Positions 17,576 to 50,142 of a stretch of 55,767 nucleotides of DNA are shown piece by piece (the stretch's first letter is position 1; every line of letters starts with the position of its first letter). The stretch spans positions 1 through 55,767 of the forward strand of contig JALUZF010000204.1 of assembly GCA_027012135.1 (NCBI GenBank), written 5' to 3'. The DNA comes from Gammaproteobacteria bacterium (GTDB taxonomy: Bacteria > Pseudomonadota > Gammaproteobacteria > GRL18). The position numbers and the translations under genes were made by a program. The notes beneath the pieces were generated by a model that saw nothing but the letters and a program-made list of their open reading frames with translations, was not told the origin of the DNA and ran no database searches.

Positions 17576-18589
17576 TTAAATCTTGTCCCAGTAATTTTCA
17601 GGCATTTCCTGACACATCTTCAGGCATCCATTGGCACCACAAAATTCAACATCCTGAATACAGCTTGCCTTGCCACCACCATAACTGTCCAGGCTTTTTT
17701 CTATTGCTTTATCAATACCCATCAGACGAGAGCCACCGCCGGCCACAATAATATTATGACGTAAAATTTCCTGAAAATCCGGATCAAAATCAGCGACCAG
17801 CGATTGCACTGCCTGACCAATGGCATCCGAAAGCTTCAGACAACTCTTGTGAAGTATTTCAGTAATATCATATGAACCAGGCTGCCCTTTTTTGGTCAGG
17901 CTAACAATAGCTGGGTCATTATTATCGGATACATAGCCATGCTTTTCTTTAATTCCCCTGATAATTTGGGGAGTTAACTGGACCTCAGGGTATTGTTCAT
18001 GGATCGCATCGGTAATCGCCTGATCCAGAAAATTACCTGCCTCGGTTAATGAACGCTGATCATCCTCACCGGGTATGGAACCCGACATGCGACATAAATC
18101 AGTGGTTCCTGCGCCAATGTCTACAATCAGGCATTCATCAAAACGGTCAATACCATATGCAACAGCAAAAGGTTCGCTTACAATTAATATTTTATCGATA
18201 AAGTCTTTGGTAATATTAATAATTGTTTTTTTATCCTGAACGCTTGCCAGGGCCGGCACACCAATAGTGGCATAGACTTTATCGTCCTTTTCCAGCTCGG
18301 GCAAGGTATTCTGGATCAGGTCTTTCAGGACTAACCTGGTCGCTTCTTTCGAAACCTCATCATCACGAATAACCCCTTCAGCCAGTGGCCAGACAAGATC
18401 CAGTGAAAGACGATTTTTTAAGGCTTCCTCACCCAACAGATGATTTTTATTCAAGCGCTTTTGTGAAATAACATCTTTGGGATAGCCCACACAGGTTTTT
18501 GTAGAAAGCCGTTTACCTGTTGAAGTAACAATAGAAGATTGACTGGTACCCAAGTCAATACCAATATGATAAATAGTTGAAGTTGTCAT
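17576..18589 (-). CDS. mamK: MamK-like actin filament protein
   Basis: The 337-residue actin-family ATPase has phosphate-1 motif GIDLGTSQSS (10-19), then the run VGYPKDVI, the run IVSEPFAVAYGID with Glu139, phosphate-2 VDIGAGTTDLC (156-166) and the adenosine motif AGGGSRLMG. These match the magnetosome filament protein MamK much better than MreB, ParM or Hsp70, down to VGYPKDVI, GVPAxAS and the near-C-terminal ENYW. MamK forms cytoplasmic filaments that position magnetosomes. The gene precedes a small coiled-coil membrane protein gene on the same strand and lies near a MamC-like gene and a P-type ATPase, suggesting it organises a membrane compartment. No MamJ is seen. Confidence 0.85.
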   Translation of the reverse strand: MTTSTIYHIGIDLGTSQSSIVTSTGKRLSTKTCVGYPKDVISQKRLNKNHLLGEEALKNRLSLDLVWPLAEGVIRDDEVSKEATRLVLKDLIQNTLPELEKDDKVYATIGVPALASVQDKKTIINITKDFIDKILIVSEPFAVAYGIDRFDECLIVDIGAGTTDLCRMSGSIPGEDDQRSLTEAGNFLDQAITDAIHEQYPEVQLTPQIIRGIKEKHGYVSDNNDPAIVSLTKKGQPGSYDITEILHKSCLKLSDAIGQAVQSLVADFDPDFQEILRHNIIVAGGGSRLMGIDKAIEKSLDSYGGGKASCIQDVEFCGANGCLKMCQEMPENYWDKI

Positions 18590-18684: not shown

Positions 18685-19038
18685 CTAAGAAGTCGATTGC
18701 CGTAACTGGATATTATCTTCTATCAGGTATTCAAATAGCCCCATTTCCCCAGGGCTTTTACCACTTTCTGGACTAGTTTGTTGTGCAGCAAACGTGTTTA
18801 CTGTCTGCATAGACTCAGCAGATTCGGTTTTACTGTTTGCCGTTTGCAGATCAGCCATTTGCTTCTTCATCTGCCTGAGTTCGTCATGCAACAGATCTGT
18901 TTCAGTCTGTACACATAACTGCTTGTTACGCCAGACTCGCCAGATAATGATCCCACTAACCAGCAGTATAGAACTGGGCAACAATGACACACCCAGTAAT
19001 TTACCGGTGCTTATCTGAACAACACTGTTTTCAAGCAT
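18685..19038 (-). CDS. membrane-anchored coiled-coil protein upstream of mamK
   Basis: The 117-residue protein has one membrane segment (about residues 13-34), a coiled coil at about 40-65 (LHDELRQMKKQMADLQ), a Ser/Thr/Glu-rich linker and a conserved-looking C-terminal patch, GLFEYLIEDNIQLRQ. I recognise no family. It is the first gene of the mamK transcript, with a 95-bp gap. Its topology, an organelle or inner-membrane anchor with a cytoplasmic tail ending in a short motif, is what a filament tether would need. That is inference only. Confidence 0.65.
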   Translation of the reverse strand: MLENSVVQISTGKLLGVSLLPSSILLVSGIIIWRVWRNKQLCVQTETDLLHDELRQMKKQMADLQTANSKTESAESMQTVNTFAAQQTSPESGKSPGEMGLFEYLIEDNIQLRQSTS

Positions 19039-19412: not shown

Positions 19413-21509
19413 ATGCTATTTGGCTTAACCACCGTTTTTGTAACATATGCTTTGGTAAGACTGCATGAGCATTATCAAAAAAACAATTCTCATTTACCCC
19501 CTGACAAAGTCGACAGCAAGACTGTGCCGGGGGAAGAACTTGAAGTAACACCGGAAAACCTGCTGCTTGATAAAACCGATGAAAATAACAGAAATAAACG
19601 CTATGTAATTTTGAGTGGAGTATCCACAGGGCTTGCAGCAGCCAGATTTGTTTATCCTCCTTTAACCGTAGCCAGTATCCTGGTCTTCACCTATACAGCA
19701 ATCCCCTATCTTAGACAGACAGAAAAATCACTGCTAAAGGATAAAAAAATTGACGGCTATGTACTTTACAGCATTGCAGACATGATGATGCTTGGCCTGG
19801 GTGCCTATGCCTCCGCATCTGTGGGTGTTGGTTTACTGCATTGCTCAAAATATATTCTGAGTAATGCCAAAGAAAGATCCAAAAGACAACTGATCGATGT
19901 ATTTAGTCAACAGCCCGACCAGGTATGGGTTGTAAAAAATGGTTCTGAAACAAGGGTTTCCATTGATCAGGTAAAGGTAAATGACATTCTGGCTGTTGAT
20001 GCGGGTGATATTATTCCTGTGGATGGAATTGTGACTGATGGCATCGCTGCAGTTGACCAGAAAGTATTAACAGGAGAAGCCCAGCCTGCTGACAAGACAG
20101 TAGGTGACAGAGTGTTTGCATCAACCATGGTATTGTCGGGTCGGGTCCATATTCGCATGGAAAAATCAGGGCGGGAAACCACCGTTGCCAAGATTGGTGA
20201 AATCATTAACCACTCCATTGATTTCCAGAGCAGCCAGGCACTGAAGGGGGAACAATGGGCAGATTCCTTTACCACCCCTGTGCTGGTACTGGCATTCCTG
20301 AGCTGGCCATTTTTAGGACCCGTTGCTACCGTGGGGATTCTTTACTGCCATATTGCCAACACCATCAGGGTAGTCGCGCCTCTGGGCACCCTCAACTATC
20401 TTAATATTGCGCTTGAAAATGGCTGTCTGGTTAAAGATGGACACGTTCTGGAAGAATTAACCCATATCGATGCAATTATTTTTGATAAGACAGGAACACT
20501 AACCCAGGAAATTCCCGAAGTTGGAAAAGTTATCCTTTGTGATGACTCTTATAACGAGGATGACATCCTGTTTTATGCCGCCGCTGCCGAACAAAAATCG
20601 GTACATCCCATTGCCAAGGCCATTCTTAAAAAGGCAGAAGACAGGAACATGGTATTGCCTGAAATAGAATACTCCAGCTACGATATTGGTTATGGCATTT
20701 CGGTTGATATTGACGGCAAAACCATCCAGATTGGCAGCAGCCGCTTTATGCAGATGAAAGACGTTGAAATACCAGAAAAAACGAACAAAAAGATAGATGA
20801 GGCGCTTGCCACTGGGCATTCGGTTATTATGCTGGCAATTAATTCAAGATTACAGGGCATTCTTGAAATACATACTATTGTTCGGCCAGAAGCAAAAAAA
20901 GCCGTTCAGCTTCTAAAACAAAATGGTATCCAGTGTATGGCAATTGTATCCGGCGATCATAAATTGCCAACCCGGGCACTGGCTGATGCTCTGGGAATGG
21001 ATAATTATTATTATAACACTCTGCCGGAGGAAAAGGCCGAGATAGTCGAAAGATTGCAGAAAGCGGGGAAAAAAGTCGCTTTTATCGGAGATGGTGTAAA
21101 TGATTCCATAGCCATGGAACAGGCGGATATTTCCATTTCTTTAAATGGCGCATCAACTATTGCAACCGACGTCGCCCAGGTTGTTCTCATGGATGGAGAC
21201 CTGAAACATATACCCGGTCTGATGGGACTTTCCAGGAAGCTTGATAAAAACCTGTCCAGAAGCCTTGTCCTGAATATTGTTCCTAATGCCATTGCACTCA
21301 ATGGGGTTCTGTTTTTTCACTTTGGTATGCTTACCACCATGTTGATAAGCCAGTCTCCCCTTGTGCTTGGCACTATAAATGCTCTCTTTCCCGTTGACAG
21401 TAAACCTGAACATGAATTATCCGATAGTGATGAGATGGAAATAGAGAAGGAGAAACTGCCTGATATGACAGATTCCATTGAACAAGCGCCAGTCAGTGCT
21501 GAGGTCTGA
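19413..21509 (+). CDS. P1B-type ATPase without HMA domain or CPx cysteines (copy 1)
   Basis: This 698-residue P-type ATPase has one N-terminal membrane segment, an acidic linker, then the ATPase core. TGE is at 220-222, DKTGTLT begins at Asp358, the HP motif is VHPIAKAI, and the hinge is GDGVND followed by SIAM instead of the usual APAL. The membrane motif that is CPC or SPC in metal pumps reads VAPLGTLNYL (321-330), with no cysteine. There is no HMA or His-rich metal-binding domain. The clade resembles the ferrosome ATPase FezB (P1B-6), whose cargo is iron; here the ion is unknown. AAGGA precedes the ATG. Paralogues lie at 32763, 40095 and 48084. Confidence 0.88.
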   Translation: MLFGLTTVFVTYALVRLHEHYQKNNSHLPPDKVDSKTVPGEELEVTPENLLLDKTDENNRNKRYVILSGVSTGLAAARFVYPPLTVASILVFTYTAIPYLRQTEKSLLKDKKIDGYVLYSIADMMMLGLGAYASASVGVGLLHCSKYILSNAKERSKRQLIDVFSQQPDQVWVVKNGSETRVSIDQVKVNDILAVDAGDIIPVDGIVTDGIAAVDQKVLTGEAQPADKTVGDRVFASTMVLSGRVHIRMEKSGRETTVAKIGEIINHSIDFQSSQALKGEQWADSFTTPVLVLAFLSWPFLGPVATVGILYCHIANTIRVVAPLGTLNYLNIALENGCLVKDGHVLEELTHIDAIIFDKTGTLTQEIPEVGKVILCDDSYNEDDILFYAAAAEQKSVHPIAKAILKKAEDRNMVLPEIEYSSYDIGYGISVDIDGKTIQIGSSRFMQMKDVEIPEKTNKKIDEALATGHSVIMLAINSRLQGILEIHTIVRPEAKKAVQLLKQNGIQCMAIVSGDHKLPTRALADALGMDNYYYNTLPEEKAEIVERLQKAGKKVAFIGDGVNDSIAMEQADISISLNGASTIATDVAQVVLMDGDLKHIPGLMGLSRKLDKNLSRSLVLNIVPNAIALNGVLFFHFGMLTTMLISQSPLVLGTINALFPVDSKPEHELSDSDEMEIEKEKLPDMTDSIEQAPVSAEV

Positions 21510-25247: not shown

Positions 25248-26243
25248 ATGAAAATATCCAATATCTTAAAAGGTTCGGAGTCTGTGCAATTTCGTTGGCC
25301 TCGGAAGAAAAGACATTACCTGATTTTTTTCCTGATAATTCTCCTGATATTAACTGTTTTGCTATGGAATCGTATCGTTATTACGGCCTATGCAGGTGAA
25401 GCTGGCGTGTTATTCCGTCGCTTTAGCGGTACTGAGATTGATAGAATATATAAAGAGGGTGTTCATATCATCAGTCCCCTGGATATTATGACAATCTATG
25501 AAACCCGAAATCAGATTGCTCTGCATGAATTTGATGTGTTATCGGTAAAAGGTTTGCGTATTCATCTGGCAATAGCCATTCGTTATCGTCCCCAGTATGA
25601 TATGTTAACTACACTACATCAGAAGATTGGCCCTGATTATCTTCAGCGTGTCGTCCTCCCACAAATCGAATCCGTCATGCGTAAGCAGCTGGGTAACTAT
25701 AATGCGGATCAGATTTATACCAATGAAAATGGCTTATTGAACACGGCTATTGTTCTGGCAATTAACGAGGTAGGGCGTAATTATGTTGTAGTCGATGATG
25801 TCATTATCCGCAGTCTCACCCTGCCCGACAATATTGTTAAAGCAATAGAAGACAAGCTGACTCAGCAGGAATATTACAGGTCTTATGAGTTTCGATTGAA
25901 AAGTGCAACACAGGAAGCCCTGCGTAAAATCAGCGAAGCAAGAGGCATCAATCAGGCACAGCGTATTATCAGTGAATCACTGACACCTGAAGTACTGGCA
26001 TATGAAGGTATTAAAGCCACTCAGGAGCTGGCAAAATCACAGAATGCCAAAATTGTTGTTATTGGTTCCGGAAAGAATGGCCTGCCGCTGATTCTCGGAG
26101 ATAATGCTTTTACTACTGCTGCTGGTTCAGCTATTCATAATAAGAACAAACAGATGATGCCTCCTGCTTCCAGTCCTTCTAACATCCCCTCATCGTTTTC
26201 ACAGGCACCCTCCCCTGAACTAAATCAGGCTCCTGTGCAGTGA
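25248..26243 (+). CDS. SPFH/prohibitin-family membrane protein
   Basis: The 331-residue protein has one N-terminal membrane segment (about 24-46) and then an SPFH/band-7 domain: AGEAGVLFRRFSGTEIDRIY, VLSVKGLRIHLAIAIRYRP, then the helical region EARGINQAQRIISESLTP. The C-terminus is Pro/Ser/Gln-rich. SPFH proteins form ring or cage assemblies on membranes and organise microdomains. The stop overlaps the start of the next gene (TGATG), so it is coupled to the substrate-binding lipoprotein. Confidence 0.88.
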   Translation: MKISNILKGSESVQFRWPRKKRHYLIFFLIILLILTVLLWNRIVITAYAGEAGVLFRRFSGTEIDRIYKEGVHIISPLDIMTIYETRNQIALHEFDVLSVKGLRIHLAIAIRYRPQYDMLTTLHQKIGPDYLQRVVLPQIESVMRKQLGNYNADQIYTNENGLLNTAIVLAINEVGRNYVVVDDVIIRSLTLPDNIVKAIEDKLTQQEYYRSYEFRLKSATQEALRKISEARGINQAQRIISESLTPEVLAYEGIKATQELAKSQNAKIVVIGSGKNGLPLILGDNAFTTAAGSAIHNKNKQMMPPASSPSNIPSSFSQAPSPELNQAPVQ

Positions 26244-27493
26244 TGATTCTAAGGAGCCTTCAGCTAAACTTCAATTTGACAGGCATCATTTGTAGAAATT
26301 TAATGTTACTACAAATGTCTGCTGCCAGATTGAAGTTACTGAAAAACTCTTTGCTATTAATTATCACCTGTTGTTTATTGAATGCCTGTAATGTTGACTA
26401 TGAAACGATGGCATCACAACGGGTTGAATATGCTCAGAAGAATCAGGGAGAAATAGTTATTGTGGCTCTTCAGGATTCAGCCAGGAGTCATTATATCAAT
26501 GGAGTTATGTTAGCTGTTGATGAAATTAACCAGCATAAGGGTTTATCAGGTCGACCTCTTAAATTACTTGTTGAACAGGATAGTCCTGATTTTGAGAGCG
26601 CAATACCAACTATTCAGCGTATTGTTTCTAACCCAAAAGTATCAGCCGTCATGGGTCATCAAAATACAGAGGTTGCTATAGCTGCTTCTGCCATTTATGA
26701 AAAAGCTCAGGTACTGTTTTTCTCTCCATTTGTTAGTGCACAGGAGCTGACCTCACATGGTTTTAACTATACTTTTCGTATGCTTGCAGATAATAAACAT
26801 CTGGTGAAGCAGATGAGCAGTTTAGGCAGGATTCTGGGCTTCAAAAAAGTTGCCGTACTCTATGCCCATGCAGATGAATATCGCGAATTAGCCCTGCTGT
26901 TTAAAGAGGCTATCCGTAATGATTTCAGTCTGGTATTTGATCATGCATTATTCAGTAAGTCACCTGACTTCCGCGCTATTTTATCAGACCTGAAACAAAA
27001 AGATGCTGATGTAATTTTTCTCTCTGGCGACTCAGCAACGGCAGCAAGGTTAATTAAACAGGCAAGGGAAATGGGCATAAATATCCCTGTCATGGGTTCA
27101 GGAAATCTTGATTCTGAAATATTTAAAACTTCCGCAGGTGCTGCGGGAAACAGGACCATTGTTCCAACACCTTATAATGTCCAGGCAAAGAACCCGATTA
27201 ATCAGGTTTTTGTTGCCAGTTACCGCAACAAATATAATCAGCTCCCTGATGCAAACGCAGCTCAGGGCTACGATTCAGTTATGCTTTTTGCTGACAAAGT
27301 AGTAAGAGCCGGGTCAACCCGGCCTGCCCTGCTGGCATCTATTGTGCATTTCTCGCCGCCCTGGACAGGTGTTTCAGGAATATATCGCTTTAATAAAGCA
27401 GGCAATATTTATGGAAAGCCGTATTTCTTTCGGGTATTAAAAAATGAAAACTGGCAGATGCTTTCTACCCCCAGTCCAGAAGAACAACACTAA
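26243..27493 (+). CDS. Leu/Ile/Val-type substrate-binding lipoprotein
   Basis: This type-I periplasmic binding fold protein of about 416 residues has a lipobox LLNAC near residue 50 and runs such as ILGFKKVAVLYAHADEY and DADVIFLSGDSATAARLIKQA. ABC amino-acid or urea binding proteins look like this, but no permease or ATPase genes follow, so it may act as a sensor or with a distant transporter. The TGATG overlap favours the start at 26243; an ATG at 26315 gives a tidier signal peptide (MSAARLKLLKNSLLLIITC). Confidence 0.8.
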   Translation: MILRSLQLNFNLTGIICRNLMLLQMSAARLKLLKNSLLLIITCCLLNACNVDYETMASQRVEYAQKNQGEIVIVALQDSARSHYINGVMLAVDEINQHKGLSGRPLKLLVEQDSPDFESAIPTIQRIVSNPKVSAVMGHQNTEVAIAASAIYEKAQVLFFSPFVSAQELTSHGFNYTFRMLADNKHLVKQMSSLGRILGFKKVAVLYAHADEYRELALLFKEAIRNDFSLVFDHALFSKSPDFRAILSDLKQKDADVIFLSGDSATAARLIKQAREMGINIPVMGSGNLDSEIFKTSAGAAGNRTIVPTPYNVQAKNPINQVFVASYRNKYNQLPDANAAQGYDSVMLFADKVVRAGSTRPALLASIVHFSPPWTGVSGIYRFNKAGNIYGKPYFFRVLKNENWQMLSTPSPEEQH

Positions 27494-27816
27494 AACATAC
27501 CTGGAATAATTACTGGAACGTAACTATTCAGTATAAATTAGTATGACATAGAGTAAATGGCTGCAGGTACTGTGTTTGCGGGGTTTTGAAAAGTTCTAAA
27601 CCGATACATGGACGTACTTGAGCGCCCCCGGAAATACAGTACCACCTGCAGCCATTAACGGTTCGATACACTGAATAGATACATGGGAACAATACTTATG
27701 TATAAGAACGCTTAACTGAAAACAACAAAGCATGTTCGAGTACCAAAGTTGTTTCATGCACATTTTAAACTTGTTATAATTTACCTACACTGCTAATGAA
27801 TGATTGGAGACTACTT
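27494..27816. other. intergenic region containing inverted-repeat copy A
   Basis: About 320 bp separate the binding-protein gene from the DUF697-like gene. Apart from the repeat described at 27557-27655, nothing else was recognised. Confidence 0.4.
27557..27655 (+). repeat. hairpin-forming intergenic repeat, copy A
   Basis: The ends ATGGCTGCAGGT (27557) and ACCTGCAGCCAT (27644) are perfect complements. The middle 44 bases (27583-27626) recur perfectly, inverted, at 32552-32595. Partial similarity continues on both flanks, so this is a member of a small mobile-like or REP-type repeat family. Confidence 0.85.
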
Positions 27817-28491
27817 ATGGATAACGACACAACTAAGCTATCCGAAACAATTGAAGAACTGGAAACTGATCTGCATACTGTAGCAACAGCGCTAAGACTG
27901 TCTGAGGCTCAGAACATTGTAGAAACTAATGTAATTATTTCCATGGCGTCTGGATTAATTCCTGTTCCTTTATTTGATATGATCAGTCTGACCAATATTC
28001 AGTTTCATATGATTCAGACCCTGGCAGAGCATTATGAAATTCCTGCTGACAATATTAACAAATCACTTATTACTTCTATTATCTCTGGCTCATTACCTGC
28101 TATTTCCATGCTTGGACTAGGTAGCATTATTAAAAGTGTACCCGGGATTGGATCTTTGGCAGGTAGTGGCAGTGTCTCCATTATTTCCGGTGCCATTAGC
28201 TATGCTCTGGGTCAGGTTTTTATCCGCCACTTTCAGCAAGGTGGAACACTGGAAGATTTTAACCCGGATTCAGCAAAAGAATATTTTAATGAACAGTACA
28301 AAGCGGGAAAACTAATAGCCCGTGAATTAATTCAGGAAATAAAACAACGAAAAGAAGAGATATTATCTGACTCCAAAACCCACCCGGAAACTGTAGATGA
28401 AGATATAACGAGCAAGGCTGAAAGCCCCTCGGAAACGGTCAATGAAGATCAATTATCCGACTCCAAAAAAACCAGCTCGGATGCAGCCTGA
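27817..28491 (+). CDS. stand-alone DUF697-like membrane protein (copy 1)
   Basis: This protein of about 224 residues has a helical N-terminus, then the DUF697-like core: MASGLIPVPLFDMISLTNIQ, a small-residue-rich membrane region (SGSLPAISMLGLGSIIKSV), and the run RHFQQGGTLEDFNPDSAKEY. The tail is acidic and Ser-rich. The ATG at 27817 is chosen because GGAGA lies eight bases before it. The core is shared with proteins at 36229, 37162 and the N-terminus of the ATPase at 43598. DUF697 proteins in other systems associate with membranes or GTPases; here I infer an organelle-membrane role. Confidence 0.75.
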   Translation: MDNDTTKLSETIEELETDLHTVATALRLSEAQNIVETNVIISMASGLIPVPLFDMISLTNIQFHMIQTLAEHYEIPADNINKSLITSIISGSLPAISMLGLGSIIKSVPGIGSLAGSGSVSIISGAISYALGQVFIRHFQQGGTLEDFNPDSAKEYFNEQYKAGKLIARELIQEIKQRKEEILSDSKTHPETVDEDITSKAESPSETVNEDQLSDSKKTSSDAA

Positions 28492-28646: not shown

Positions 28647-29417
28647 CTATTTATATTTTACAAACAGATCACCTGCAACCACCACTGTATAAGTAAAAAC
28701 AGGATCACCCTTTTGTTTTGGAACCACCTGCAAAAACCCATTCAGAGCAAATTGTTCTACCATCCCTTCCCCTTTGACAACTTCTCCATTCATACGAATA
28801 ACATCTCCTGTATGCAACACAGCAATGTCATCCTGTTGCAATTCAGTCTTGTCAATTTCTACTTCAGTCTCGTTACGTAACACCCATATTTTTTGAAAAC
28901 CTGGATCAAAAGCCCTGGCCATACCAATAGAGGCGATGTTTCCAGCCTGTAAAGCCCATTTACGCACACTAAAAGAAAAAGTAAGCAAGGAAGATAAAAG
29001 CAGATAACGTCCTGTCAGAATAGTTCCTGCCACACTGGCAAGCTCAAAAATAGTCAATGGGGATTTTTTCCGCCTTTCATTGGATCGATGAATCGTAATA
29101 AAAAAATAGTAGGTGCTATAACCCAGAAAAGGAATGCTTGCAAGGGTAAACGGTGAAAAGACAAGCGCACCAGAACCTGTAAGAGCCAATGCCATGAGTG
29201 AAGCCCGCTGACCGTGTACTACCTCAGCAGTATCATCTATAATGGTGACTTCCTTACTGATCTCGTTTGAAGATTCCTGGTCACTGGAAAGAACAGGTTT
29301 CGGGAAATAAGGTGAGAGTACAACAGAAGATGCCCGCTTTTTTTGCTTCTGTTCCCGCCATAGAGCACTCGCAACGCCACTCATGACCAGCGGTAAGAAT
29401 AATGCCATTTGTATCAT
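28647..29417 (-). CDS. truncated P-type ATPase-like protein (membrane part plus actuator domain)
   Basis: The 256-residue protein resembles the first third of the four paralogous ATPases: an N-terminal membrane segment, a linker, two to four membrane segments, then an actuator domain (KIWVLRNETEVEIDKTELQQ, LHTGDVIRMNGEVVKGEG). It stops at the end of that domain. The TGE loop is replaced by ALNGFLQ, so dephosphorylation chemistry is lost. I found no phosphorylation or nucleotide domain downstream, and AGAGG precedes the ATG. It could be a regulatory or structural partner of the full ATPases, or a decayed copy. An accessory role is favoured because the reading frame is intact. Confidence 0.6.
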   Translation of the reverse strand: MIQMALFLPLVMSGVASALWREQKQKKRASSVVLSPYFPKPVLSSDQESSNEISKEVTIIDDTAEVVHGQRASLMALALTGSGALVFSPFTLASIPFLGYSTYYFFITIHRSNERRKKSPLTIFELASVAGTILTGRYLLLSSLLTFSFSVRKWALQAGNIASIGMARAFDPGFQKIWVLRNETEVEIDKTELQQDDIAVLHTGDVIRMNGEVVKGEGMVEQFALNGFLQVVPKQKGDPVFTYTVVVAGDLFVKYK

Positions 29418-29622: not shown

Positions 29623-30141
29623 ATGAGCAATATAAACAGTTGCATTGCCATTTTCAAGACCCATCATGAGGCTGAACAGGCCATCAAGGAGTTAGATCGT
29701 GCCGGTTTTGATATGCAAAAACTCTCCATTGTGGGTAAGGACTATGCGCGGGAAGAAAATGTCATCGGTTATTACAACGGCATTAACAGGGTAAAATTCT
29801 GGGGCAAACGGGGTGCCTTCTGGGGTGGTCTCTGGGGGTTGTTGTTTAATCCTGCTTTTATGTGCGTTCCTGGTACTGCTTCACTAAGCGCTGGCGGATT
29901 TCTGTTTATCACACTTGCCAGCGGTCTGAGTACGGCCATATTTACAGGCAGTCTTACCGCTCTTGGTGCAGCACTGTACAGTATTGGCGTTCCCAGAAAC
30001 AGCATTATTAATTATGAAACGGCTGTTAAAATGGAAAAATACCTGCTGATAGTGCATGGCACTCAGGATGAAACAGAACGCGCCAGCGATATTCTGAATA
30101 CAGGCAAAGAAGTTGAAGTTGCGGTCTATACAACTGAATAA
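29623..30141 (+). CDS. YflT/general-stress-like membrane protein
   Basis: The 172-residue protein opens with the pattern IAIFKTHHEAEQAIKELDRA and LSIVGKDY typical of the general-stress protein YflT/DUF1269-like group, has two membrane segments in the middle (about 65-125), and closes with a second ferredoxin-like half (KYLLIVHGTQDETERASDIL). It is likely an inner-membrane stress protein; the reaction is unknown. It is convergent with the molybdopterin enzyme gene. Confidence 0.75.
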   Translation: MSNINSCIAIFKTHHEAEQAIKELDRAGFDMQKLSIVGKDYAREENVIGYYNGINRVKFWGKRGAFWGGLWGLLFNPAFMCVPGTASLSAGGFLFITLASGLSTAIFTGSLTALGAALYSIGVPRNSIINYETAVKMEKYLLIVHGTQDETERASDILNTGKEVEVAVYTTE

Positions 30142-32762: not shown

Positions 32763-34823
32763 CTATTTTTCTGCCAACCTGTTTTTATCTCCTTTATTAC
32801 AATGCCCGCGAACAGGACGCATTGCTACCGCAATACCTGCGAGCAAACCAATCTGAGGAAAAATAAAAGACTGTATCAAGCCAAGATTAAAAAACAAAAT
32901 AGATCCAACAACCGATACCACACTGGGGGTAACTACAGTAGCGACAACTTTTTTCATATGGCCATTAAATTGTTGACCCATGCCAAACAGGTAAGGCAGC
33001 TGGTTAAGTGTTTTGCCCATTAAAACAATTTGCGCTGCATCTGTGGCAACAGTAGACGCACCACGGATAGATACGGAAACATCAGCTTCCTGTAAGGCAA
33101 TAGAATCATTAATACCATCACCGACATAGCAAACGGATTTGCCTTCTGCCTGAAGCTGTTTAATGAGTTTTGCTTTTTGTTCTGGCAGAACTTCAGCAAA
33201 ATAGTGGTTAATACCCAGCTCATCAGCCAGTTGACGAGTGGGGGCATCATGATCACCAGAAATAATATAGGTAGACTCGATACCGCATTCATGCATTAAC
33301 TCATGGATTAATTCTTTAGTCCCGGGACGGATAGCCGCCGCCAGCTCAATGCTGCCTACAGCACTATCATCGATGGCAACCGCAATCATAGGAACCCCCT
33401 GCTCCTGACAGTATGTTTGGGCGGTACGGATATCATCAGGAATATGGATATCTTCCTGCTCAAGAAAACGCACACTGCCGACCCGTACAATATGTCCTTC
33501 AATACCAACGGTAAGACCATAACCCAGCTTGTAGGCAGATTCTTCTATGTTGGGTAATTCCAGTTGTTGTTCTATTGCCTGCTGAATAATGGCCTGGGCA
33601 ATGGGATGACTTTGTTTACTTTCTGCGGCAGCGGCATAACGCAGCACTTCCTGTTCGGAGTACTCACCACACAGGTGAATTTTCTCTACCCGAGGTTGAG
33701 CTTCCGTTAAAGTACCGGTCTTGTCAAAAACAACCGTATCCACTTTTTCCAGCAACTCAAAGGTATGCCCGTCCTTAACCAGAATACCATTATGGGACGC
33801 CATATCCAGATAGTTCATCACACCAATCGCAGAAGCAATAGAGGCCCGATATTTAAAGTGAGAGTTCAACACTCCCAGTGCACCAATCGGGCCAATAAAA
33901 GGCAGGGATACTGCACTAATTGCAAAAGTAGGCAGCACACTCCTGTCACTGATTTCTCTGGACCAGAGCTGTACATCGGTTTTGGTACTGATAGTATTAT
34001 TAAGAATAGTGGCAATTTGTGCTGCTGTAGTTTGCTGGCCCGTCTCACGCGCATGAATGTATATTTTTCCAGCCAACACCAATGTCAGGGCAAATACCTC
34101 ATCACCGGCCGATTTTTCTACAGGTTGAAATTCACCAGTTAGAATATGCTGATCAACTGAAGCGGAGCCTTCCACAATCTCGCCGTCAACAGGAATGGTG
34201 CTCCCTGCACCCACCATCACTGTATCACCCGTTTTTAACTCTTCAAAAGGTATTTCCCGCTCAATACTATCATGCACCACCCATACGGTACTGGGTTGCT
34301 GCTTAAAGACATCAATAATATTTTTCTTTGAGTTATCCGTGATTTTAGAGAGTAATTTACGATTCAGACTGAACATAAAAACTGAGAAACTGGCAAAAAC
34401 AAGGTAGCCGTTAAGCAGCAATAATACTTTCATCGTTGCTGAGAGAAAATCAACCGTTAGTTTTTTTTCCTTAAACAGTCCTTTAAAAGCCTGCATAATC
34501 GCAAAATGGGTGATATACAAAATGCCCGGCAAACTCAGTAAGCCAATGGGAAAATAAAACAGCTTGCCGATAATTGCCAGGCTCAAAGAAGCCATAGAAA
34601 CCACCATATTACGATCGGTTAGTTTCTGTTGCGGATTTTTTTTATCCAGGTTGCCCGCAGAAAACTCTTTGAGATGCTGATGACGTGCAGAACCTGTAAA
34701 GGGTATAACACGTTCCTTTTTAGGCTTTCTGGCACGTGCCTTACGGAGTGTTTTTTGGTTCTTTTTTACATACCGATAGAGATAGGTACCAAAACCAGTG
34801 GCACTAATTATTTCAAGAATCAT
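32763..34823 (-). CDS. P1B-type ATPase without HMA domain (copy 2)
   Basis: The 686-residue paralogue of the ATPase at 19413 differs in two ways. The N-terminus carries a strongly basic Lys/Arg stretch (residues 20-38, KKNQKTLRKARARKPKKE). The membrane metal-site motif reads ASAIGVMNYL (330-339), so even the normally invariant proline is Ala. TGE (229-231), DKTGTLT (Asp367), SHPIAQAI and GDGINDSIAL are intact, so it should still hydrolyse ATP. GGAG precedes the ATG. Transport may be altered or uncoupled; an N-terminal Arg-rich motif is, as I recall, also seen in ferrosome FezB. Confidence 0.88.
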   Translation of the reverse strand: MILEIISATGFGTYLYRYVKKNQKTLRKARARKPKKERVIPFTGSARHQHLKEFSAGNLDKKNPQQKLTDRNMVVSMASLSLAIIGKLFYFPIGLLSLPGILYITHFAIMQAFKGLFKEKKLTVDFLSATMKVLLLLNGYLVFASFSVFMFSLNRKLLSKITDNSKKNIIDVFKQQPSTVWVVHDSIEREIPFEELKTGDTVMVGAGSTIPVDGEIVEGSASVDQHILTGEFQPVEKSAGDEVFALTLVLAGKIYIHARETGQQTTAAQIATILNNTISTKTDVQLWSREISDRSVLPTFAISAVSLPFIGPIGALGVLNSHFKYRASIASAIGVMNYLDMASHNGILVKDGHTFELLEKVDTVVFDKTGTLTEAQPRVEKIHLCGEYSEQEVLRYAAAAESKQSHPIAQAIIQQAIEQQLELPNIEESAYKLGYGLTVGIEGHIVRVGSVRFLEQEDIHIPDDIRTAQTYCQEQGVPMIAVAIDDSAVGSIELAAAIRPGTKELIHELMHECGIESTYIISGDHDAPTRQLADELGINHYFAEVLPEQKAKLIKQLQAEGKSVCYVGDGINDSIALQEADVSVSIRGASTVATDAAQIVLMGKTLNQLPYLFGMGQQFNGHMKKVVATVVTPSVVSVVGSILFFNLGLIQSFIFPQIGLLAGIAVAMRPVRGHCNKGDKNRLAEK

Positions 34824-36228: not shown

Positions 36229-36783
36229 TCATGCTTTGGCTGGAATCTCATCTTCTGCAATAGTCTCACTTTCTGCAAGCTTCTCACTTTCTGCAAGTTT
36301 CTCACCTTCTTTAAATAACTTTGCATAATGCCCCTTTACCTGCTCAGGATCAAAGTTCAGGAAGGTGCCGCCTGATTCAAAATGCTGAATAAACAGGTGG
36401 CCTATTGCGTAGGTTAATGCAAAGCCCATTAAAGGTGTAGTCACAATACTGATTACAGGTGCTGCCACAGGGATAGCCGTACTAAGTCCCCAGATCAGTC
36501 TGCCTGAAATAGAGAGGGCTCCACAACTTCCCAAAAAACTGCTAATAGCCGCTTTTCCGGCATCTTTACTGAATTTAACATCGTAGACAGAAGATAACCT
36601 TTTTAGCATGGTCAGATTGTTAGCCAGAATCAGACTCATAGCTAATGGTGGCATGGGTATTGCCCCCAGAGGAGCACTCAGTAAACTATGGTTTCTGACA
36701 AGTCTGTTTACTCGTGATATTCGATACCTGTGTTTCACATTCTCCAGGGTACCATCTATTGTTGTTTGTTCTGTAGCTGTCAT
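36229..36783 (-). CDS. stand-alone DUF697-like membrane protein (copy 2)
   Basis: The 184-residue protein has the shared core PLGAIPMPPLAMSLILANNL, an Ala/Gly-rich membrane region, and the run HLFIQHFESGGTFLNFDPEQV. The C-terminus repeats KLAESEKLAESE. CAGGAG lies before the ATG. It differs from the other copies by lacking the Asp after PVP (here PMPPLAM). It is likely on the same membrane as its paralogues. Confidence 0.75.
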   Translation of the reverse strand: MTATEQTTIDGTLENVKHRYRISRVNRLVRNHSLLSAPLGAIPMPPLAMSLILANNLTMLKRLSSVYDVKFSKDAGKAAISSFLGSCGALSISGRLIWGLSTAIPVAAPVISIVTTPLMGFALTYAIGHLFIQHFESGGTFLNFDPEQVKGHYAKLFKEGEKLAESEKLAESETIAEDEIPAKA

Positions 36784-37161: not shown

Positions 37162-37650
37162 TTATGATTTTTTTCCTTTTTTCTGTGACTTTTGTGTCTT
37201 CAATGACAGAGTTATTCCTTTTTTTAGTTCTGCCTCAAAGATTTCCTGTTCCTCGTCAGGGTCAAAATCCTCCAGGGTTCCACCTGCTTCAAAGTGGCGC
37301 TTAAAGGTTGTTCCAACCGCATAGGTCGAAGCGCTGCCTATTGCAGCCATACCAATACTGCCAAATAAGACATTGATTCCGGGAATTATTTTTATTGCCA
37401 TGGGGAAAGCTGCTCGTGAGGCAATACCTCCTGCTAATGTTCTTAACAGATCTTTTGCCAGGCTGCGTGAAAATGGTATGTCATAGATCTTCGCAAGATG
37501 AAATAACATCTTGCGTTGAATAGCCATAATACCCAGGGCATCTACTACAGGAAAAGGGATATAACCGAACAAACTGGAACCAAAAGCATATTTATTGATG
37601 AGTTTGTTTGCCTGTCCTGATAGAATCTTTTTTGATGGCTTTTTCTTCAT
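37162..37650 (-). CDS. stand-alone DUF697-like membrane protein (copy 3)
   Basis: The 162-residue protein has a basic N-terminus (MKKKPSKKILSG), then FGYIPFPVVDALGIMAIQRK, a membrane region, and RHFEAGGTLEDFDPDEEQE, closest in this run to copy 1 and to the ATPase fusion. The C-terminus is basic (KSQKKGKKS). The ribosome site is weak. It is the first gene upstream of copy 2 on the same strand, about 380 bp away. Confidence 0.75.
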   Translation of the reverse strand: MKKKPSKKILSGQANKLINKYAFGSSLFGYIPFPVVDALGIMAIQRKMLFHLAKIYDIPFSRSLAKDLLRTLAGGIASRAAFPMAIKIIPGINVLFGSIGMAAIGSASTYAVGTTFKRHFEAGGTLEDFDPDEEQEIFEAELKKGITLSLKTQKSQKKGKKS

Positions 37651-37893: not shown

Positions 37894-38922
37894 ATGAACG
37901 AGAACCTGCCTTTGCCCTTCAATTCAATAATGGCTAACACAAAATTCCCTCTGAATAAAAATAAACTCTGGTTTCATAACCTGCATTCAACTACCAGCGA
38001 TTTTGCCAGCGATGTGTTGCAGGGCCTGAATAAACGACCCGCCGCCATCCCACCAAAGTATTTTTACGATGCCAGAGGCTCACAACTATTTGATGCCATT
38101 ACTAAACTGCCCGAGTATTATCAAACCCGTACCGAGATAGCAATTTTACAGGATAATGCCGATGAGATTGCTCACCATGTGGGCACAGCTAACCTGTTGA
38201 TTGAACCCGGAGGTGGCAGTTGCACCAAAGTGCATATACTTCTGGAAGGACTGAGACCAGTAGCTTATGTGCCAATGGATATCTCCAGTCAGCACCTGCA
38301 GCTGGCAACGGAAAAACTGGCCACTGCCTTTCCCTGGCTGGAAATCCATGCCACCTGTACAGATTTTACACACAGCATGGTACTGCCGCCAACCGCTCTG
38401 GAGAATACAGAGGGTACGAAGGTGGCTTTTTTTCCTGGTTCGAGCATTGGTAACTTTGATCCCGGAAGCGCAGTGGAATTCCTGACCTCAATTGCACAAC
38501 TGGTGAAACCGGAGGGCTACCTGTTGATAGGAGTTGATCTGAAAAAGGACAGGAGCATCCTGCACGCCGCCTATAACGATACTGCCGGCATTACAGCACA
38601 GTTTAATCTCAATCTACTACAGCGAATTAACCACGAACTGGATGCCGACTTTGAGCTTTCGCACTGGCGGCATAAAGCGATTTATAATGAGCAGGCCGGA
38701 CGTATCGAGATGCACCTGGTCAGTTTACGAAAGCAACGGGTTCACATTGGACAAAAGCATTTTGATTTCGCTGCCGGTGAGACAATCCACAGCGAGAATT
38801 CCTATAAATACAGCACTCAGGAGTTTATAAAACTTGCACAACAGGCAGGCTTTCAGTCCATTGCACTTTGGGTCGATGCAGACAATTTATTTAGTGTCCA
38901 TTTGTTTTGCGTTCAGGAATAA
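37894..38922 (+). CDS. egtD: EgtD-type histidine N-alpha-trimethyltransferase
   Basis: The 342-residue SAM-dependent enzyme is of the EgtD family, which makes hercynine, the precursor of ergothioneine and selenoneine. Visible are PPKYFYDARGSQLFDAI and LPEYYQTRTEIAIL at the N-terminus, the SAM motif LIEPGGGSCTKVHILL and FFPGSSIGNFDPGSAVEFL. It is isolated from the EgtB/OvsA-like gene by over 30 kb. It could feed that enzyme to make ergothioneine or selenoneine beside the N-methyl product. The ATG at 37894 has no clear ribosome site; one at 37930 is possible. The stop overlaps the next convergent gene by ten bases. Confidence 0.88.
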   Translation: MNENLPLPFNSIMANTKFPLNKNKLWFHNLHSTTSDFASDVLQGLNKRPAAIPPKYFYDARGSQLFDAITKLPEYYQTRTEIAILQDNADEIAHHVGTANLLIEPGGGSCTKVHILLEGLRPVAYVPMDISSQHLQLATEKLATAFPWLEIHATCTDFTHSMVLPPTALENTEGTKVAFFPGSSIGNFDPGSAVEFLTSIAQLVKPEGYLLIGVDLKKDRSILHAAYNDTAGITAQFNLNLLQRINHELDADFELSHWRHKAIYNEQAGRIEMHLVSLRKQRVHIGQKHFDFAAGETIHSENSYKYSTQEFIKLAQQAGFQSIALWVDADNLFSVHLFCVQE

Positions 38923-40094: not shown

Positions 40095-42173
40095 TTATGA
40101 AACCTGATCAGAATCAATTTTCCTGGGGGATTGCTTCAGAGCGACTGTTTTTTTAAAACCTTTTTTCAGACCTTTTTTTATCTCTTTGCTTATATCTTTA
40201 TATTCAAGAATGGGTGACATGGCATTGAGCAGGGCCAGTACAAAACTGGAATAAACAATCACAAAAGAACCGCCCAGACTTAAGCCCATAAACAGCGCAC
40301 CACCTAAACTAATAACGGTGGGTACAGTAATAAGCACCAGACTACGCCATAAATTGTTTTTCAGCTTGTGTGCTGTATCAAATAAATCACATAAATGGGT
40401 TAAGCTACCTTCCATTAAAATGGCCTGCGCCGTATCCGTAGCAATAGACGTGGCACCACTTAAAGACACAGAAACATTAGCCGTGTTCATTGCGATGGCA
40501 TCATTGATGCCATCGCCGACAAAACAGACTCTTTTACCCTCTTGTTGTAATTGTCTGACGATCTCGGCTTTTTGCTGAGGCAGCACTTCATAAAAATAAC
40601 TGTCTATTCCCAGGGACTCGGCCAATTTCTGGGTAGGGATTTTATGATCACCTGAGACAATTGATATATGTTTAATGCCACGTTGGCGTAAGCCGTTTAA
40701 AACGTCCTTAACTTCTGGACGAAGGGTAGACACAAGTTGAATCGCACCAGCAATATCCGTATTGATAGCAACCAAAACCAGCGAGTTTCCTTCCAGATGA
40801 GCTTGCTCTATGGCGGATTGTATTAACGGAGGAATGACAATATTCTCCAGTTCCATAAAACGGGCACTGCCGACTCGAATTAACTGATTATCAATAGTGA
40901 CTGAAATGCCATAACCCATGGTAAAACTGGAATCCTCAATAGAGGGTAACACCAGGCCGGATTCTTTGGCTTTTTCAAGGATGGCCTGAGCCAGGGGATG
41001 AGTGAGTTTTTGTTCAGCCGTAGCCGCATAGCTTAAAACATCCTCGCTGCTATATCGATCATGACTACTGATAATTTTGCCTACCTCAAGCTGATCGTGA
41101 GTTAAGGTCCCGGTTTTATCAAACAGTACCGTATCAACCCGGCCTAATTCTTCAATAACACGTCCGTCTTTGATGAGTATCCCTTTGTTAAAGGCAGCAT
41201 GAAGATAATTCAGGGTTCCAATGGGGGAAACAATTCTCAGGCGGTTGCCAAAGGTACTATGCGAAACAATAGTAGCGGTTGCAAGTCCGCGGGTTGGAAT
41301 AGCCAAGATGGTTAGTGCAAAAACAGGCTTGGCAATCATATTCGCCCATTTTTCCCCTTTTAATTGAATAGATGAGGTATAAGCCGAGGTATTATTTAGA
41401 ATTTCAGTGATTTTTGAAATATTGGTATCACTACCGGCCTGGGTGACTTGCACATGGATCTGACCACTGATAATGAGCGTTGAAGAAAAAACCTGATCAC
41501 CGCTTTCTTTTTCCTCCGCTTGCGATTCGCCCGTCAGGGCATGCTGGTCTATCATTGCGAAACCTTCGCTAATAGTACCATCAACCGGAATGATCTCCCC
41601 GGCTCTGACAACCACAATATCACCAACCATGACCTGATCAAGGGGTACTTCGATTTCAATACCGTCTTTTAAAACCCATATTTTATCAGGTAACTTTTTG
41701 ACCAGATCACTTATCATGGGTTTGGACATGGCCTGGTTCATGGCCAGCATTTTTGCGCCAGAATGATAGAAAAAGACGCCCAGTGCGATATATAGCTCCT
41801 GATTGGTCAGAAAAGCCAGGATAATATAAAGACTATAAAGCACATCATGGCCTATGGTACGCCGTTCCAGTAGTTGTCTTTGACCGCGTTTCAAAATGGG
41901 AATACAGGTATAAAGAATCGTTCCAAGGCTTGCAATATAGAATAACGGGAAAACCCCTGTCAAAAGTGAAAGACCTAAAGAAACCGTGCTCACCTTAAAA
42001 AAATGGTTACACAATTGTTCCGATTCATCAATATTAGTCATCTGGGCCAGTGACTTGTGGGATTTTTCGGCCAGTTCCAGTGGCTTGTTTGAAGCAGGCT
42101 GTTGGTTGATATATTTGTCATAAATTTTCACGCCAATGAAAGCAGCCACAAGAATACCTATTCTAAATAACAT
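40095..42173 (-). CDS. P1B-type ATPase without HMA domain or CPx cysteines (copy 3)
   Basis: The 692-residue ATPase has N-terminal MLFRIGILVAAFIGV, a Lys/Gln-rich linker, TGES at 214-217, metal-site run RIVSPIGTLNYL (SP at 316-317, no Cys), DKTGTLT at Asp352, THPLAQAI, GDGINDAIAM. The C-terminus is very basic (KKGLKKGFKKTVALK). GGAGG precedes the ATG. Closest paralogue is copy 4 at 48084, apparently a recent duplication with colinear motifs. The ion is unknown. Confidence 0.88.
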   Translation of the reverse strand: MLFRIGILVAAFIGVKIYDKYINQQPASNKPLELAEKSHKSLAQMTNIDESEQLCNHFFKVSTVSLGLSLLTGVFPLFYIASLGTILYTCIPILKRGQRQLLERRTIGHDVLYSLYIILAFLTNQELYIALGVFFYHSGAKMLAMNQAMSKPMISDLVKKLPDKIWVLKDGIEIEVPLDQVMVGDIVVVRAGEIIPVDGTISEGFAMIDQHALTGESQAEEKESGDQVFSSTLIISGQIHVQVTQAGSDTNISKITEILNNTSAYTSSIQLKGEKWANMIAKPVFALTILAIPTRGLATATIVSHSTFGNRLRIVSPIGTLNYLHAAFNKGILIKDGRVIEELGRVDTVLFDKTGTLTHDQLEVGKIISSHDRYSSEDVLSYAATAEQKLTHPLAQAILEKAKESGLVLPSIEDSSFTMGYGISVTIDNQLIRVGSARFMELENIVIPPLIQSAIEQAHLEGNSLVLVAINTDIAGAIQLVSTLRPEVKDVLNGLRQRGIKHISIVSGDHKIPTQKLAESLGIDSYFYEVLPQQKAEIVRQLQQEGKRVCFVGDGINDAIAMNTANVSVSLSGATSIATDTAQAILMEGSLTHLCDLFDTAHKLKNNLWRSLVLITVPTVISLGGALFMGLSLGGSFVIVYSSFVLALLNAMSPILEYKDISKEIKKGLKKGFKKTVALKQSPRKIDSDQVS

Positions 42174-43597: not shown

Positions 43598-46372
43598 ATG
43601 CCGGCAACTAAAAATAACCATGATCCTGTAAATTCAGTACATGTCAGCAAAGCGCAAAAGGCTGGAATTATACTAAATGAATATACCGTTGCGTCAATGA
43701 CAATCGGTTTAATACCCGTACCTGTAGCTGATTTTGCAGCTTTAAGCGGGCTTCAGTTCAAGATGATCCATAGTTTTTCCAGGCTTTATGATCAAGATTT
43801 TTCGGAAAATCATAGCAGGACATTCATTACCTCTTTGCTGGGTGGGGCTCTTCCGTACACATTCCTGCGCATGGCAAGCATGGTTAAACTGGTTCCCGGT
43901 GTAGGCACCATGGTCGGTACGACCAGTATGGTTACTATGGGCGGAGCCTCGACCTATGCTCTGGGAAAAATACTCACAGAACATTTTGAAAGTGGAAAAA
44001 GTCTGGAAGAACTTTCTCCTAAAGCAGTAAAAGGCACCTTTTCCAAAGAGCTGAAAGCGGCCCGGAAAGTTATTTCAAAACTGCAGAAAAACAAAGAGCA
44101 TCATGGCGAACACAAACATGAATACTCTCATTATAATATGCTCGATAATGAGCATGGTCACGATCATCATTCTCATAATCACGATGATCATGCCCATGAT
44201 CACGACCACCATTCCCATGATCACGATCATCATTGCGGTGATACCTGTGGTCATGATCATAGCCATGATCATGACCATGTGCACGGTGCTTCATGCGGGG
44301 ACGATAGCTGCGGCCATGAACATGCACATGATGACATAACACTAGAAAAATACAAACACAAAATTATTCTGGGCGGGACAACCTTGCTTGGCCTGGGCGC
44401 ACAACGATTATTTTTCCCTGCACTGGTTACCGGCAACCTGCCTGTCTTTATCATCGCAGGTACAGTAACAATCATAACCGGTTCAACCTATATAGGCGGG
44501 TTATGGCGCTCCATTAACAAACGTAAAATCAATTCAGATACCCTGGTGGGCAGCGCAACGCTTGCCAGTCTGGCAATGGGCAATGGGCTCACTGCACTGG
44601 CCGTTCTGCTCCTGCTTAATATCGGTGAACGTTTTGAAGCCGTAACATTGCGAAAAACCCAGAAAGCCATCAAGGATTTACTGGAAATAGATGCCAATGA
44701 AGAAGTCTGGCTGGTCAGCACAACAGATGATGGCCGGTTTGTAGAAACCCAGGAACGTCTGTCCAGCATAAAACCAGGCGATAAACTGGCGGTTTATGCA
44801 GGTCAGCGGATTCCAGTGGATGGAACGGTTGTCGAAGGTGATGCCCGTGTCAATCAGGCGCCTGTAACAGGCGAAGAACTGCCAGTAGAACTGACTACCG
44901 GTGATAATGTTTTTGCCGGTTCCATTTTAATAGTGGGCAAACTGATCATTTCAGTTGCCAAGATCGGGCAGGATACCGTGGTGGGACGTATTATTGAACG
45001 TGTCCATAAGGCCGAGGAACTACGTCCTCACATCCAGACGGTAGGAGAAAAATTTTCCCGACGTTTCGTGCCATTCTCTTTTGCACTTTCAGGCGGAGTA
45101 CTGTTACTGACACTTGACCCCACTCGCGCCCTGACCATGTTGCTGATTGCCTGCCCCTGTGCAATTGGTCTGTCCACCCCCACTTCAGTAAGTGCTTCTG
45201 TGGGTAATAGTGCCAAACGCGGGATACTGATCCGTGGCGGCACCTTTCTTGAATCAGCCGCCCAGGCCGATGTCATGGTTTTTGATAAGACTGGCACCTT
45301 AACCAGCGGCGTACCCCATGTGATCAGGGTAATTTCATATGATGAAAAATACACCGCGAATGATCTTGTTGCCATGGCGGCATCAGCCGAAATTCATTCC
45401 AACCACCCTCTGGGCGGTGCAATCCTGGCTCATGCAAAAGATAATAATATTGAGTACGAACAGCCGGAATTCTATCAAAATATAGATGGCGGCGGAATGC
45501 AGGCTACCCTGAAAGATGCCTCTATTGTCTATGTTGGCAACCAGAAATTAATGGAAAAATTTGGTATACAGATCAGCCCAAAGGCTAAAGAGCAACACCA
45601 GAAATACAGTCTTGAAGGTGAAACAATGCTGTATATTGCCGACCATGATCAGTGCATCGGTTTGATTGGAATACGCAATACCGTGCGTCCCCATGTACAG
45701 GAAACTCTTGAACAAATACGCCAGCTAGGCATTCAGAAAACCATAATGCTCACAGGTGACCAGGCTTCTTCTGCAAGACAGGTGGTCAGAGCTGCAGGTA
45801 TTGATGAATGGCATGCCGAGCTGATGCCTGAAGAAAAGTACCATATCATACGTGAGCTTCAGGCACTGGGCTGTAAGGTCATTATGGTTGGAGACGGTAT
45901 TAATGATGCACCAGCACTGGCCATTGCCGATGTGGGTATTGCACTGGGTACAGGATGTTCTGATGTGGCCATTGAGTCGGCAGATATTGCCTTATCCAGT
46001 GACGACTTCCGGAAACTGAGTGAAATGTTGCAAATTAGTCATAAAACCATAAAAATCATTCGTCAGAATTATGGTATGGCTCTGGTCATTAATGCCGGTG
46101 GACTGGTAGCGGCTGCCTTTGGACTGATCAACCCGTTTATCGCTGTGGTTTTACACAATGCTTCAACAGCAGGTGTATTACTTAATTCATCACGCCTGAT
46201 CACTTATGAACCTGATGAAGTTGCTACCGACAAAGATAAAAATTCCGGTCCCCAGACAAACATTGAACGGGTTAAAAACAAGATTTCCTTAATGAATTTT
46301 ATCCGTGCCAGGGATGAGTCCAAAACACTGGATGAAAAACCCGCCATTAAGGCCACGCAGGAGTGCTGTTAA
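43598..46372 (+). CDS. CPC-type P1B ATPase fused to DUF697-like domain with His-rich linker
   Basis: The 924-residue fusion has a DUF697-like domain at residues 1-160 (IGLIPVPVADFAALSGLQF, HFESGKSLEELSPKAVK). A His/Asp-rich metal-binding stretch follows at about 167-246, with several Cys-containing GDTCGHDH-type runs. The P1B core has TGEE near 423, IACPCAIGLSTPTS near 516-529, Asp563 in DKTGTLT, NHPLGGAI and GDGINDAPALA. Unlike the four copies it has a normal CPC site, so Zn, Cd or Cu is likely; its CDF and ZIP neighbours favour zinc. There is no HMA domain. GGGGG precedes the ATG; the C-terminus is ECC. Confidence 0.9.
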   Translation: MPATKNNHDPVNSVHVSKAQKAGIILNEYTVASMTIGLIPVPVADFAALSGLQFKMIHSFSRLYDQDFSENHSRTFITSLLGGALPYTFLRMASMVKLVPGVGTMVGTTSMVTMGGASTYALGKILTEHFESGKSLEELSPKAVKGTFSKELKAARKVISKLQKNKEHHGEHKHEYSHYNMLDNEHGHDHHSHNHDDHAHDHDHHSHDHDHHCGDTCGHDHSHDHDHVHGASCGDDSCGHEHAHDDITLEKYKHKIILGGTTLLGLGAQRLFFPALVTGNLPVFIIAGTVTIITGSTYIGGLWRSINKRKINSDTLVGSATLASLAMGNGLTALAVLLLLNIGERFEAVTLRKTQKAIKDLLEIDANEEVWLVSTTDDGRFVETQERLSSIKPGDKLAVYAGQRIPVDGTVVEGDARVNQAPVTGEELPVELTTGDNVFAGSILIVGKLIISVAKIGQDTVVGRIIERVHKAEELRPHIQTVGEKFSRRFVPFSFALSGGVLLLTLDPTRALTMLLIACPCAIGLSTPTSVSASVGNSAKRGILIRGGTFLESAAQADVMVFDKTGTLTSGVPHVIRVISYDEKYTANDLVAMAASAEIHSNHPLGGAILAHAKDNNIEYEQPEFYQNIDGGGMQATLKDASIVYVGNQKLMEKFGIQISPKAKEQHQKYSLEGETMLYIADHDQCIGLIGIRNTVRPHVQETLEQIRQLGIQKTIMLTGDQASSARQVVRAAGIDEWHAELMPEEKYHIIRELQALGCKVIMVGDGINDAPALAIADVGIALGTGCSDVAIESADIALSSDDFRKLSEMLQISHKTIKIIRQNYGMALVINAGGLVAAAFGLINPFIAVVLHNASTAGVLLNSSRLITYEPDEVATDKDKNSGPQTNIERVKNKISLMNFIRARDESKTLDEKPAIKATQECC

Positions 46373-50099: not shown

Positions 50100-50142
50100 T
50101 AATAGCATTCTCCGTATGGTTTACTTATGGGATGGTTCGGCT

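Follow-up and report, generated by a model that had tools for sequence, protein, structure and literature searches.

The MamK2 locus

The window analyzed here is the whole stretch of 55,767 nucleotides of contig JALUZF010000204.1, from a gammaproteobacterial genome assembly (GCA_027012135.1). At positions 17576..18589 it carries, on the minus strand, a gene for a MamK-family actin of 337 aa, which was identified by open reading frame, profile and tree and is designated MamK2. The original prediction had placed a MamK-like filament gene in exactly this interval; the open reading frame is real but runs on the minus strand, and a plus-strand reading, with 13 stops, was ruled out. Both sequence runs cited in that prediction, VGYPKDVI and SEPFAVAYG, are present in the translation. 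The nucleotide-binding motifs are intact (phosphate-1 GIDLGTS, phosphate-2 VDIGAGTTD and adenosine VAGGGSR), and comparison among relatives gave dN/dS values of 0.02–0.11, indicating purifying selection. Matches to promoters and terminators were no more frequent than expected by chance.

MamK2 is flanked by six ATPase-type genes and by DUF697 proteins, in agreement with the P-type ATPases and membrane proteins originally described around it. Four of the six encode full-length P1B-like ATPases that lack the CPC motif (hereafter CPC-less ATPases). They lie at 19413..21509 (plus strand, divergent from the anchor gene described below, 698 aa, TM4 HIANTIRVVAPLGTLNY), 32763..34823 (minus, 686 aa, TM4 HFKYRASIASAIGVMNY), 40095..42173 (minus, 692 aa, TM4 TFGNRLRIVSPIGTLNY) and 48084..50108 (minus, 674 aa, 62% identical to the copy at 40095). 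A half P-type ATPase at 28647..29417 (minus) comprises only the membrane portion and some of the A domain, with no DKTGT. Encoded between and beside these genes are an SPFH/Band 7 membrane protein (25248..26243, plus), a type 1 periplasmic-binding-fold protein (PerBP; 26240..27493, plus), DUF697 membrane proteins at 27796..28491 (plus), 36229..36783 (minus) and 37162..37650 (minus), and a YflT-domain membrane protein (29623..30141, plus). A gene for EgtD, the L-histidine N-alpha-methyltransferase, is found at 37894..38922 (plus). The sixth ATPase-type gene (43598..46372, plus, 924 aa) encodes DUF697 and a His-rich stretch fused to a CPC-type metal ATPase; together with a CDF transporter (42324–43229) and a ZIP transporter (46495–47529), it likely forms a zinc module.

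On its other side, MamK2 borders a selenium locus (10103–17014) that is kept beside it in relatives. This locus comprises a SenB selenosugar synthase (13779–14756; TIGR04348, 427 bits), a SelD/oxidoreductase fusion (14753–17014) and a putative selenate ABC transporter (12390–13262 with 11749–12393 and 10103–11614). Two large Hsp70-like proteins encoded in tandem (50143–54899) adjoin the ATPase at 48084 and are likewise kept in relatives.

MamK2 forms a clade apart from magnetosome MamK

The profile search proposed in the original prediction ranked the MamK family first: MamK2 matched the NCBIfam MamK profile (NF040964) over 330/335 positions with an E-value of 1.5e-117, ahead of BeeR (210 bits) and MreB (75 bits). 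Its score of 392.4 bits is a near miss of the curated cut-off of 400 bits. The closest solved structure is Magnetospirillum magneticum MamK (5ljw, E 3e-76), with which GIDLGTS, SEPF, VDIGAGTTD and AGGGSR align; these segments are invariant or nearly so across the MamK2 clade. An AlphaFold model reached a pLDDT of 40, from an alignment of eight near-identical sequences that was too shallow. Judged by its sequence, MamK2 is an actin of the MamK family with intact nucleotide-binding motifs.

Two trees, one of 64 rows and one of 45 rows from which the longest branches had been removed, gave results that agree. MamK2 formed its own clade with support of 100/100 and members in five families (the window, its family, G055, G138, G261, G474, G512 and G566); a partial copy in G535, 63% identical, was left out. 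Magnetosome MamK formed a separate clade (95/99 and 88/90 in the two trees). Joining MamK2 with the MamK of G017, a grouping picked after the first tree, was rejected (p-AU 0.0065). Membership in the MamK clade, as the original prediction implied, does not hold: on these alignments MamK2 stands beside magnetosome MamK as a sister and does not fall within it. The two are alike in belonging to one family over the profile, in matching structures 5ljw and 5jyg and in sharing the same nucleotide motifs, whereas MamK2 scores just under the cut-off, forms its own clade, has its own anchor gene and is missing the C-terminal extension of many MamK proteins. BeeR (NF053558; PDB 8r2n), the next closest actin family, is clearly outside the MamK/MamK2 group. 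The order of branching among MamK, MamK2 and a third clade, "MamK3", was weakly resolved. MamK3 (L033–L038) comprises six gammaproteobacterial genomes (97/97 and 97/100) and has no recognised mam neighbours. A search for plasmid-borne relatives of MamK2 returned MreB-type proteins only, at less than 30% identity.

A small predicted membrane protein accompanies MamK2

Directly upstream of MamK2 and on the same strand, with a 95-bp gap after its stop, lies a gene for a protein of 117 aa (18685..19038, minus), which we term the anchor. The window copy has a predicted N-terminal transmembrane helix, a coiled-coil/variable linker and a conserved C-terminal tail ending in LIEDNIQLR (LFEYLIEDNIQLRQSTS). 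Wherever sequence upstream of MamK2 was available, the anchor gene adjoined it. In nine diverse homologues, 16–79% identical to the anchor of the window, the N-terminal hydrophobic helix, an invariant Trp after it and the tail [DE]N-x-x-LR (QN in G261) recur, and the linker varies in length and sequence. Purifying selection acts on the anchor gene, and its tail is kept where the linker diverges. When all open reading frames at the compared loci were scanned, a C-terminal N-x-x-LR occurred in the anchors and otherwise only in spurious-looking or unrelated frames. A Pfam search of the anchor gave no match, and its predicted model, of low confidence, shows a long helix joined through a disordered linker to a C-terminal helix. 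The small neighbour of MamK at true MamK loci is a different membrane protein, without the tail. Neither the anchor gene nor the co-occurrence of MamK2 with the ATPases had been mentioned in the original prediction.

Adaptors linking the MamK filament to the membrane have been described, namely MamJ, MamY and McaA–McaB (PMC13170167, PMC9512821). By analogy, the anchor may serve as such a filament–membrane linker. Unlike these adaptors, it is small, with a single predicted N-terminal transmembrane helix and its own tail motif.

CPC-less ATPases and their neighbours

The four full-length CPC-less ATPases in the window retain the DKTGT and TGE catalytic motifs, and the ATPases match the P1B superfamily model TIGR01525 with 397–399 bits. 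However, all four have other residues (I/F-A/K/G-N/Y) in place of the TM4 CPC. The variants read HIANTIRVVAP, HFKYRASIASA, TFGNRLRIVSP and TFGNRLRVAAP, compared with ACPCAIGLSTP in the metal-type ATPase of the window. The other listed copies of the family also lack CPC and have a similar TM4, in most cases followed by AP-x-x-x-LN. The half ATPase is conserved in length (274–280 aa) and sequence in four relatives and therefore is probably not a recent truncation.

Gene order around MamK2 was compared among genomes. In G535, which is Zetaproteobacteria-like, ATPase, anchor and MamK2 are consecutive on one strand with gaps of 66 and 172 bp. In G566, also Zetaproteobacteria-like, one strand carries Band7, DUF697, an OmpA-fused PerBP, a TM protein, a C39-ABC exporter, the anchor and MamK2; the Band7 and DUF697 proteins of this run are 51% and 41% identical to those at 25248 and 27796 in the window, and the window PerBP has relatives in both G566 and G535. 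Band7, binding protein and DUF697 genes occur together in the window (25248–28491) and near an ATPase in G535. In G261, MamK2 is followed by genes for DUF697, a phosphopantetheinyl transferase and a degenerate ATPase. ATPase or Band7/DUF697 genes adjoin MamK2 in three separate lineages: the window's family (f1), G261 and f207, a family that we infer to be Zetaproteobacteria (Mariprofundaceae).

Read by eye, the neighbours of the ATPases are often biosynthetic: EgtD, NRPS, O-methyltransferase, Rieske oxygenase, carbamoyltransferase and sulfotransferases, as well as TauD with an enolase-superfamily enzyme and an SAH-hydrolase-like protein with tandem methyltransferases. One adjacent pair, a saccharopine-dehydrogenase-like protein and a PLP-decarboxylase, was read as carboxynorspermidine synthesis. 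EgtD-like genes adjoin CPC-less ATPases also in G055, G138 and G261, and NRPS genes were found close to MamK2 in G138 and close to ATPases in G055.

Two outlying ATPases were also seen. G018, a genome without MamK2, encodes a copy of the CPC-less family with DKTST in place of DKTGT (L142, 9919–11886), adjoining ABC-type genes, PerBP and Band7. On an Azospirillum brasilense plasmid, siderophore and iron ABC transporter genes border a six-gene run (L109, 7719–11758) with two HMA2 proteins, YtxH and an atypical P-type ATPase, a distant homologue with the TM4 DYSCALKLATP. This run is possibly ferrosome-like.

MamK2 and the CPC-less ATPases occur in the same genomes

Among 24 genomes of the order, the six with MamK2 are exactly those with 5–9 ATPases at no less than 38% identity. 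In the other 18, we found the single DKTST copy of G018 and one weak match each (30–31% identity) in G001 and G004. Scores against the ATPase family profile are bimodal, at least 650 bits or at most 390 bits. One 144-kb contig, in G007, holds MamK2 together with eight CPC-less ATPases. Outside the window's family, the MamK2 genomes carry ten (G055), five (G138), three (G535), three (G566) and two (G261) copies, and none in G474 and G512, both of which have mam genes. A CPC-less ATPase was present in 1/33 comparison genomes (G350, one copy).

We extended the comparison to 369 evenly sampled members of the class. The ATPase family was found in nine of these, comprising 5/5 genomes with MamK2 and 4/364 of the others (Fisher p 2.3e-9, with related genomes counted as independent). 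The profile was built partly from MamK2-bearing genomes, none of them G055 or G138. In both of these MamK2 lies apart from the ATPases and, since none of the ten ATPases of G055 is on the MamK2 contig, linkage alone fails to explain the co-occurrence. The link is not obligatory: G474 and G512 have MamK2 but no CPC-less ATPases, and the reverse holds for four sampled genomes.

Host genomes and magnetosome genes

Close relatives carrying MamK2 are gammaproteobacterial MAGs, one of which, a symbiont from the lucinid clam Taylorina solomonensis, also has the cluster and is a sulfur oxidiser of the order Thiohalomonadales, GTDB family SZUA-152 (PMC9938160). From kinship among the searched genomes, it follows that the window genome belongs to the same family. 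We set aside a contaminated draft as the source of MamK2, because the gene recurs in relatives from two genera of the family, and in four of these relatives the whole cluster is present. The same non-mam context of MamK2 is found in five relatives of the window's family.

Within the window, no mam genes other than MamK2 were recognised, and neither MamM nor MamQ had a match over the cut-off in the whole genome, which is estimated to be 100% complete. The best match to MamM scored 200 bits (an ordinary CDF; cut-off 350) and the best match to MamQ 79 bits (LemA-type; cut-off 250). The setting free of mamB, mamE and mamQ noted in the original prediction is thus borne out for the window and, for MamQ, genome-wide. 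MamM exceeded the cut-off in one of the 24 genomes of the order, G017. This genome of the window's family (L019, contig C68) has true mamE, mamK, mamM and mamO and is a probable magnetotactic member of the family. Three further genomes, G138, G474 and G512, contain both MamK and MamK2, all with MamM over the cut-off; in G512, MamK2 shares a contig with the mam cluster, about 7 kb from mamK.

Proposed role of MamK2 and alternative explanations

Since MamK2 has its own anchor, is encoded by a genome that lacks MamM and MamQ and is accompanied by many unusual pump-like proteins, it probably organises a membrane structure other than the magnetosome. We propose that MamK2 and the anchor are made together and that the anchor, as a small inner-membrane protein, extends its [DE]N-x-x-LR tail on a flexible, partly coiled-coil linker, where the tail most likely would bind the MamK2 filament or a factor on it. 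Such a pair would give rise to membrane-attached filaments, and these would position or gather a membrane domain, probably a compartment inside the cell, that holds the CPC-less ATPases with SPFH and DUF697 proteins. Filament formation, anchor–filament binding and the compartment are what we infer, and the pumps would move organic solutes rather than soft metals. We give about even chances to a membrane-anchored MamK2 filament organising a pump-bearing membrane domain or compartment. The filament-based positioning of another compartment suggested in the original prediction gains from the anchor gene and from the genome-level link to the ATPases, while the filaments and the compartment stay hypothetical; no compartment-forming protein was identified. 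A more specific version, in which organic metabolites such as ergothioneine-type betaines, polyamines, or sulfated or peptide products are pumped by the ATPases into organelle vesicles that the anchor-tethered actin positions, is speculative and we hold it to be doubtful. If it were true, magnetosome MamK and the MamK2 system would both stem, as separate branches, from one older actin that positioned organelles.

The main rival to an organised pump domain is a general membrane or cell-polarity cytoskeleton, comparable to MreB, with the ATPases merely common in the same sulfur- or iron-oxidising bacteria or co-travelling on islands. It would account for the retention of MamK2 and anchor in G474 and G512, for the location of MamK2 beside the housekeeping genes PheS/PheT and RNase HII in G474, and for a constant anchor–MamK2 unit in an otherwise varying neighbourhood. 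However, the window genome (G000) also encodes one MreB-like protein of its own (contig C70), the co-occurrence with the ATPases is very strong across several families, and ATPase or Band7/DUF697 genes adjoin MamK2 in f1, G261 and f207, so that we consider a general cytoskeleton possible though unlikely. An alternative in which the ATPases load iron or some other metal into a membrane vesicle, a ferrosome-like store positioned by MamK2, draws on their P1B superfamily membership, on the CDF, ZIP and CPC-type ATPase genes in the same region and on the iron-related surroundings and HMA2 proteins of the distant Azospirillum homologue. What makes a metal compartment less likely is the loss of the metal motif from all four full-length window copies and the other listed ones; in addition, up to ten paralogues per genome with differing TM4 fit poorly with a single metal, and many ATPase neighbours are biosynthetic enzymes. 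We regard it as improbable. Compared by description, the ferrosome (FezB P1B-6 ATPase; Grant 2022, Pi 2023) is similarly an organelle with a P1B-type ATPase, but the ferrosome reports found include no actin, whereas the ATPases of MamK2 genomes are multiplied, lack the metal motif and often lie by biosynthetic genes.

Very improbable, in our estimate, is a role in secretion, with the C39/ABC exporter, OmpA-type binding protein and Band7 proteins of G566 forming an apparatus that exports a natural product from a patch arranged by the filament. The gene run in G566, the ABC-type, PerBP and Band7 genes beside the degenerate ATPase of G018 and the NRPS genes of G138 and G055 are consistent with it, yet no such exporter lies beside MamK2 in f1, G055, G138, G474 or G512. 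Least credible of all is that the gene is a true magnetosome MamK, either with a mam cluster that the draft assembly failed to capture or left over from a cluster since lost. The mam genes of G017 in the same family and the proximity of MamK2 to mamK in G512 would fit; the completeness of a genome without MamM or MamQ, the tree and AU test, the three genomes holding both proteins and the shared non-mam context in five family relatives argue against it, and we take this explanation to be largely refuted.

To our knowledge, MamK is known almost only from magnetosomes. MamK2 belongs to a sister clade that has its own anchor, co-occurs with a multiplied pump family and is found for the most part in bacteria that lack magnetosome genes. 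If the proposed organised pump domain is borne out, a MamK-type actin would organise bacterial membranes other than magnetosomes. The anchor and MamK2 offer a concrete anchor–filament pair open to test, and the locus draws attention to P-type ATPases, uncharacterised as a group, that have lost the metal site and often lie beside biosynthetic genes. In the open-licence literature, we found no paper on the MamK2 clade, on CPC-less ATPases or on DUF697 with a P-type ATPase, and fungal or unrelated matches only for P-type ATPases with natural-product clusters; the papers found there on MamK, MamK-like and Mad28 all concern magnetotactic bacteria. Mad28, described from deep-branching phyla, is a second actin-like protein that some magnetotactic bacteria have beside MamK (PMC12713370, PMC10653835) and resembles in this respect the pairing of MamK with MamK2 in G138, G474 and G512, a likeness drawn by description, with no Mad28 sequence in the tree. 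The MamK-like protein of M. magneticum AMB-1, a magnetotactic host, acts on magnetosome alignment (PMC2818848); likened by description only, it is, as MamK2 is, a second MamK-type actin encoded outside the magnetosome island.
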